Shown here: positions 13,051 through 19,294 of the stretch, piece by piece | Layout of the letters: the number at the start of each line of letters is the position of its first letter | Position numbering within the stretch: position 1 is the first letter of the stretch | Assembly: GCA_001803565.1 (NCBI GenBank) | Contig: MHDQ01000314.1 | Location: forward strand, 1 to 19,898 | Length of the DNA stretch: 19,898 nucleotides | Source: Nitrospinae bacterium RIFCSPLOWO2_12_FULL_45_22 | Lineage (GTDB): Bacteria; 2-12-FULL-45-22 | Reading direction: 5' to 3' | Made by a program: the position numbers and the translations under genes | Notes under the pieces: model-generated | What the model was told of the DNA's origin: nothing | The model's input: only the letters and a program-made list of their open reading frames with translations | Databases searched by the model: none

Positions 13051-13302
13051 ATGAAACGGTTATTTGCCCTAATTACCCTAGCTTTTTTCCTGGTATTTTC
13101 TGCGAATATCCTCACTGCTTGCAAACAGAAGCCGAAAGAAGAGCCAGCAGTAGAGGAAGGTGCGGGAAAAGCTGAGGAACCACAGGCCGTAACCCCAGCA
13201 CCCGCTGAACAACCGGCACCAGCACCCGCTGAACAACCGGCACCAGCACCGGCACCAGCACCGGAACAACCCCAGGAACAGCCTCAAACACCTGGGCAAT
13301 AG
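13051..13302 (+). CDS. Small Pro/Ala/Glu-rich lipoprotein
   Basis: An 83-residue predicted lipoprotein. It has a basic start (MKRLF), a hydrophobic core to residue 20 and the lipobox LTAC with C24 as the acylated cysteine. The mature part is entirely low complexity: an acidic Lys/Glu stretch, then Pro-Ala-Glu-Gln repeats (PAPAEQPAPAPAEQ). Such extended chains often act as spacers across the periplasm, but no function can be assigned. AAAGGAGGTGAG before the ATG is a very strong Shine-Dalgarno. A strong terminator follows 24 bp after the stop, so the gene is probably monocistronic and well expressed. The open frames on the opposite strand are shadows of the repeat. Confidence 0.85.
   Translation: MKRLFALITLAFFLVFSANILTACKQKPKEEPAVEEGAGKAEEPQAVTPAPAEQPAPAPAEQPAPAPAPAPEQPQEQPQTPGQ
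13195..13242 (+). repeat. 24-bp tandem repeat in the lipoprotein gene
   Basis: Two perfect in-frame copies of a 24-bp unit (13195-13218, 13219-13242), beginning CCAGCACCCGCTGAAC, are followed by a partial CCAGCACCGGCA series. It encodes the PAPAEQ units, and copy number could vary between strains. Confidence 0.9.
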
Positions 13303-13326: not shown

Positions 13327-13366
13327 AAAGGGGTAAAAACTTGCGGTAGTTTTTACCCCTTTTTTT
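13327..13366 (+). terminator. Strong rho-independent terminator after the lipoprotein gene
   Basis: A perfect 14-bp stem (AAAGGGGTAAAAAC with GTTTTTACCCCTTT) closes an 8-base loop and runs into a T tract. It separates the lipoprotein transcript from degP. Confidence 0.93.
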
Positions 13367-13441
13367 ATTGGACTGGTATTGCTCTCTTGACCTTTTTTGC
13401 AATCTCTGCTACTTTTTAATCGCATAAGGATCTTAATCTAG

Positions 13442-13617
13442 TGCCCATCCAGAAATGAAATCGTGGCACTAATTAGTTTCCAATCCAGAAATGAGGAATT
13501 TTCCGCAAGGTCAAGGAAATCAAGGGATTATGCGGAGTCGTACTTTAGTACGTCGCACAAATAATCCCGCAGATTGACGCAGAGATTGTGGAAAAGGGCC
13601 ATTTATGGATGGAAACG
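13442..13617. mobile_element. MITE-like palindromic element between the lipoprotein and degP
   Basis: The region 13476-13616 is a long imperfect palindrome centred on GTACTTTAGTAC (13540-13551). Its halves start GTTTCC and end GGAAAC and share GGGATTAT/ATAATCCC and TTTTCC/GGAAAA blocks symmetrically about the centre. An extra copy of the end motif, CCATCCAGAAATG, lies at 13445, matching the right-end CCATCCATAAATG read inverted. A 7-bp direct repeat AATCTAG (13435-13441 and 13618-13624) flanks the whole unit and could be a target-site duplication. There is no transposase or long open frame inside. The right end is about 60 bp before the degP start, so it may shape degP transcription. Confidence 0.6.
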
Positions 13618-13675
13618 AATCTAGATGACCGTATTGAGTATGCTTAAGAGAATAATAATCGGGAGAGAAAAGGTG

Positions 13676-18639: not shown

Positions 18640-18813
18640 TTATCCAACCCTTGATTTTTTCTGAGGAGCGGGTGATTCCTTAAGAATTCTAATAGCATAT
18701 TTCTGCTCCATATTTTTATAATGTGCCAAAAGGGCTTTGGTATCATGCCCAAATTGAGCGGAAATTTGATGACGTACCAATCTTATCGCTTCAATTGCTG
18801 GATCCTTCTTCAT
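18640..18813 (-). CDS. Small putative antitoxin partner of the PIN-domain protein
   Basis: A 57-residue basic protein, MKKDPAIEAIRLVRHQIS at its start, then FGHDTKALLAHYKNMEQKY. It has a strong Shine-Dalgarno GGGAGG (18823-18828) located inside the end of the PIN gene, and its first 23 bp overlap the PIN coding region, so the two are cotranscribed and coupled. Short proteins of this appearance (DPxxEEIRxxRxxxxxxFGHD) commonly sit directly downstream of PIN genes of this subtype, from my memory of the family. An antitoxin role is inferred from context; no DNA-binding fold is recognisable. Confidence 0.7.
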   Translation of the reverse strand: MKKDPAIEAIRLVRHQISAQFGHDTKALLAHYKNMEQKYAIRILKESPAPQKKSRVG

Positions 18814-19294
18814 TATGTTTTTCCTCCCAGGAAATAAGTTCGACTGGTGTTGTTAAAATAGGTACAAATAGCCCGAGAATCGTATTGACATGCCTAATAT
18901 GCTCAAATTTATTGGCATTTGCAAGGTGAACACAATTCCAGGTCAATAGGAAATGACAACGGTGATATGAGGCAAGGGCCAAATGTAAGGCATCGCCCTT
19001 GGGATCTATAGGCATTACACGTCGTGTAATATATGTATCAACAATTTCCTCAATGGGATCGTGAATTGGTAGTATCGGCAATTCAGCTATGAGACCCAGA
19101 GCATCTTCTTTTGCTGGATGACTTCCGCGCTCTAGCTCTTCAATAACTGGAAGGCTTGTCACCAGTTCGTAATGCATCCGTTGGTAATCCCACCAATCGC
19201 GAGTCCACTGATGTCGAGCCACCATTTCTGGTTCCCTACGAGTTTCATAATAGAAACTCGGGATGGTTGTTTCTATATAAACGCGTCTAATCAT
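18791..19294 (-). CDS. PIN-domain ribonuclease, VapC-like toxin
   Basis: A 167-residue PIN-domain protein. The first acidic position is in VYIETTIPSFYYE, where E8 takes the place of the usual Asp, as in other members of this subtype. Further conserved acidic positions are E52/E53 (VIEELERG) and D101 (GDALHLALA). LLTWNCVHLANA (116-127) forms the last strand and loop, with Asn in place of the more common Asp. VapC-type toxins cleave tRNA or rRNA when released from their antitoxin. It starts at an ATG with a strong AGGAGG 2-3 bp further upstream than minimal spacing. The toxin lies upstream of the small partner gene, the reverse of the classical vapBC order. A perfect hairpin lies 43 bp upstream. 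Confidence 0.88.
   Translation of the reverse strand: MIRRVYIETTIPSFYYETRREPEMVARHQWTRDWWDYQRMHYELVTSLPVIEELERGSHPAKEDALGLIAELPILPIHDPIEEIVDTYITRRVMPIDPKGDALHLALASYHRCHFLLTWNCVHLANANKFEHIRHVNTILGLFVPILTTPVELISWEEKHNEEGSSN

Follow-up and report, generated by a model that had tools for sequence, protein, structure and literature searches.

The closest described counterparts of the element discussed here are the bacterial MITEs, of which Correia, RUP and ERIC have TA as their direct repeat. The element resembles this group (Correia/NEMIS, RUP, ERIC, QMITE and Chunjie) in being shorter than 500 bp and devoid of genes, in its inverted ends and stable hairpin, in its intergenic sites, in the direct repeats of its young copies and in the occurrence of close copies together with truncated relatives (PMC10969869, PMC2229807). 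It differs from them in having no sequence match in the collections searched, in the low number of five copies seen here, in carrying a further hairpin module of 29 bp on one side and in a TARYTA-like site with a repeat of about 6 bp, whereas the repeat of QMITE2 is 7–9 bp long (PMC10969869, PMC2229807). YPAL/RU-2 of Yersinia is alike in size (168 bp for YPAL) and is also an intergenic palindrome with direct repeats longer than 2 bp and dyad-symmetric targets; however, the YPAL repeats are internal and its duplications span 3–26 bp (PMC2229807), whereas the ends of the present element are terminal and its duplication is about 6 bp. The REP/BIME sequences with RAYT share the character of intergenic palindromes, but the present element has target duplications as well as inverted ends, and a linked RAYT was not found at the five Y1 loci examined.

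The element was recognized in a stretch of 19,898 nucleotides from a Nitrospinae bacterium, which is called the window below. The earlier note had described a long palindrome at the degP locus, and all of the letters that it cited are present. GTTTCC (13476–13481) and GGAAAC (13611–13616) have a common center at 13546, the central hairpin tip GTAC-TTTA-GTAC, seen in both the sequence and the fold, occupies 13540–13551 with its center at 13545.5, and the end motif CCATCCAGAAATG matches the inverted opposite end at 12 of 13 positions. Pairing of the arms requires bulges, and an ungapped self-comparison reaches an unremarkable 38%, so the case is carried by the fold and by the copies and not by a simple count of symmetric positions. 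Folding, proposed earlier as a check, showed that the palindrome folds much better than chance: the 176-nt unit has an MFE of −58.8 kcal/mol against −38.3 ± 3.9 for the shuffled sequences (z = −5.3), and the inner 141 nt reach z = −7.15. The other full copies have z values of −5.8 to −6.9, a strong hairpin being present in all full copies, and the hairpin is stable on both strands.

The organism's own genome (3.67 Mb in 321 contigs, 85% complete) was searched for the unit, as had been suggested, and multiple copies were found at unrelated loci, each with its own flanking repeat. Instead of being single-copy and conserved before degP, the element is present as four full copies with 93–99% identity, together with one 49-bp fragment, and all five are intergenic. 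With the window copy (C314:13441–13616, plus strand) as the reference, the copy at C38:6350–6525 (minus strand) differs by two bases, that at C319:1539–1711 lacks 3 bp of the hairpin tip, and that at C14:2339–2514 differs at 12 positions; the fragment lies at C268:9692–9740 on the minus strand. Five copies, the fragment included, is a low number, counted in an assembly that is 85% complete. Weak matches on two further contigs (C282 and C101) were discarded, as they lacked the element structure on inspection. All full copies begin with GTGCCCATCC and finish with GGATGGAAAC, and in four of four the identity ends at the same bases, beyond which the flanks are unrelated.

These four copies set the ends of the 176-bp element at 13441–13616 of the window (plus strand), with GTGCCC and GGAAAC as its outer ends, and reveal a bipartite layout. 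On the left is a 29-bp hairpin module, GTGCC...GGCAC (13441–13469, plus strand), whose stem pairs are kept in all four copies; then comes an internal TAATTA (13470–13475), which is like the external target sites and reads TAGGTA in the C14 copy; the remainder is the 141-bp imperfect palindrome GTTTCC...GGAAAC (13476–13616, plus strand). Each of the two modules contains the end motif ATCCAGAAATG, the left hairpin module thus holding an extra copy of it. The terminal inverted repeats, GTGCCCATCCAGAAATG and GTTTCCATCCATAAATG, agree at 14 of 17 positions in three copies and at 15 of 17 in the C38 copy. No ORF of at least 80 aa was found inside the 176-bp element, and no coding capacity was seen.

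The flanks were also informative. A 7-bp duplication, AATCTAG, had been proposed at 13435–13441 and 13618–13624; both stretches are present, but the last G of the left one is the first base of the element. Because the other copies place the element ends at 13441–13616, which is a shift of one base, the duplication is the 6-bp AATCTA, whose left (13435–13440) and right (13618–13623) occurrences are defined by copy comparison and by matching of own and cross flanks. A single extra G, absent from the other copies, stands at 13617 between the element and the right duplication; alternatively, the flanks of the window copy can be read as a 7-bp TAATCTA/GAATCTA with one mismatch. The C14 copy is flanked by TAATTA on both sides and the C319 copy by TAGTTA on both sides (6 bp in each case), while the C38 copy lies between TAGCTA and TAGCTT, a match of 5 bp with one mismatch. 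When the left and right flanks of different copies were paired, only 3–4 bp matched in all 12 cross-pairings, and at random genomic points a flank match of at least 6 bp occurred in about 0.5% of cases and one of at least 5 bp in about 2.6%. The simplest reading of the flanks is that the copies inserted independently at TARYTA-like sites, with duplication of about 6 bp.

The genes next to the copies, named from a reading of their translations, are diverse. The window copy lies before degP, one full copy is between convergent radical-SAM and CoA-ligase genes, one is after der, and one is flanked by a divergent flavoprotein gene and a gene for a sensor kinase. The fragment follows a clpX-like gene, whose TAG stop codon consists of TA from the flank and the first G of the element (C268:9692–9742). 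The suggestion that the element acts on degP as a promoter or through its hairpin found no support: the window copy contains no promoter-like site, and the other copies adjoin unrelated genes, for which reason a degP-specific regulator was rejected too. Effects on neighboring transcripts are known for other MITEs (PMC10969869, PMC2229807) and may occur here. Upstream of the window copy, a separate strong hairpin ending in a T tail (13327–13362) resembles an intrinsic terminator; it follows a short proline/alanine-rich lipoprotein-like ORF (13051–13302), the C-terminal half of which consists of a PAPAEQ-type repeat. A Pfam check of three window proteins gave one TonB C-terminal match, one PIN match below the threshold and one protein with no match; the weak PIN-domain protein (PF01850, below the cutoff) is encoded at 18791–19294.

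Outside its own genome, the element was absent from the 59 other genomes searched (one of the same phylum, from another family, and 58 other prokaryotes), and the plasmid, phage and E. coli records gave no match. The 17-bp end gave nineteen matches in viral contigs, none of them accompanied by the second end, as expected by chance; the central 21-mer was absent from these contigs, and a 22-bp plasmid match with an E value of 0.5 was likewise dismissed as chance. The best DegP relatives in a scan of genome contigs are 49–61% identical, come mostly from Deltaproteobacteria and are too distant for an empty-site comparison. The element is lineage-specific, and among the bacterial MITEs, a well-known kind, it would count as a new family.

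A partner transposase was sought in the own genome with the 17-bp end, which at up to three mismatches found only the known copies and a background of 16 other sites, against 12 for a reversed control pattern. The transposase loci examined for matching ends (six PF01609, one rve, one DDE_3, one Transposase_mut and five Y1; profiles PF01609, PF00665, PF13358, PF00872 and PF01797) gave no match and carry other ends or none that are recognizable. On contig C28, a PF01609 transposase gene (an open frame of 396 aa) lies between inverted ends CACTACTGTCCG and is also flanked by a direct repeat, ATAAAATAA, 9 bp or more in length. The locus C23:7577–8500 holds an IS5/IS1031-like element in a single copy; its inverted ends, about 20 bp long (AGAGCTTATCCGTAAATAACT), are near-perfect, its flank repeat is TAA and its transposase is split over two overlapping frames. 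That the palindrome derives from this C23 element, a special case of the MITE reading in which the partner is named, is improbable. The two do have the core ATCC[GA]TAAAT in common, equally far from the tip, and 11 of the 20 end bases agree in register, which random 20-mers reach in 0.6% of cases, a figure that is not significant because about ten comparisons were made; but the outer six bases differ at five positions, the flank repeat is of the TAA type with 3 bp and not 6 bp, and the C23 element is single-copy with a gene split in two frames. The autonomous partner may have been lost, may lie in the missing 15% of the assembly or may belong to a transposase family other than those examined.

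Two readings dispense with a DDE enzyme or with mobility altogether. A REP/BIME-like hairpin mobilized by a RAYT (Y1 transposase) would also be palindromic, intergenic and multicopy, and the own genome has five Y1_Tnp matches; however, beside the Y1 genes there is no plausible pair of MITE ends, and the element has copy-specific direct repeats of 5–6 bp and true inverted ends, neither of which is expected of the IS200/IS605/RAYT type, so this origin is very unlikely. A regulatory RNA structure or a terminator, kept by selection at several genes for its usefulness to them, would suit a hairpin that is stable on either strand, as well as the placement of one copy between two convergent genes and of others directly behind a gene. 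Insertion alone, though, explains exact ends with target duplications. Moreover, the window has no Rfam match above the gathering score, and inside the element the plus strand has no U-tract terminator and the minus strand no more than a weak candidate of 6 pairs. Compensatory changes are lacking as well: the few varying pairs are broken, nearly all of them in the C14 copy. Such uncompensated breaks would be expected of a drifting mobile palindrome, but with four close copies they are weak evidence either way. Taken with the evidence against it, a selected RNA function is hardly credible as the explanation. An integron attC site was rejected, as its core sites are not matched by the ends of the element.

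The earlier proposal of a nonautonomous mobile palindrome is thus borne out by dispersed, near-identical copies with precise common ends, inverted ends and copy-specific direct repeats. With a probability of roughly nine in ten, the palindrome is a recently active MITE, a gene-less unit of 176 bp moved as a whole by a DDE-type transposase supplied in trans. This mechanism is the likeliest because of the inverted ends and the duplications: the enzyme would act in trans on GTGCCCATCC and the inverted GTTTCCATCC, and the unit would move, probably by cut-and-paste, into AT-rich, TARYTA-like intergenic sites, duplicating about 6 bp. The composite moved as a unit, since three of the full copies have an identical inner TAATTA but unlike outer duplications. 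A 29-bp end fragment and a 141-bp palindrome would then have become one unit, perhaps when one member of the family inserted beside the end of another at a TAATTA site. It is possible, but rather unlikely, that this unusual bipartite MITE reflects two family members joined end to end, or that it was moved by a transposase from an as yet undescribed family, active in a candidate phylum and duplicating 6 bp at TARYTA.

The fragment behind the clpX-like gene is a minor case in which a MITE reaches into a core gene, and the element is otherwise ordinary. It documents recent activity of a small mobile element in a poorly sampled bacterial phylum, and its exact ends and target preference can be used to seek its transposase.
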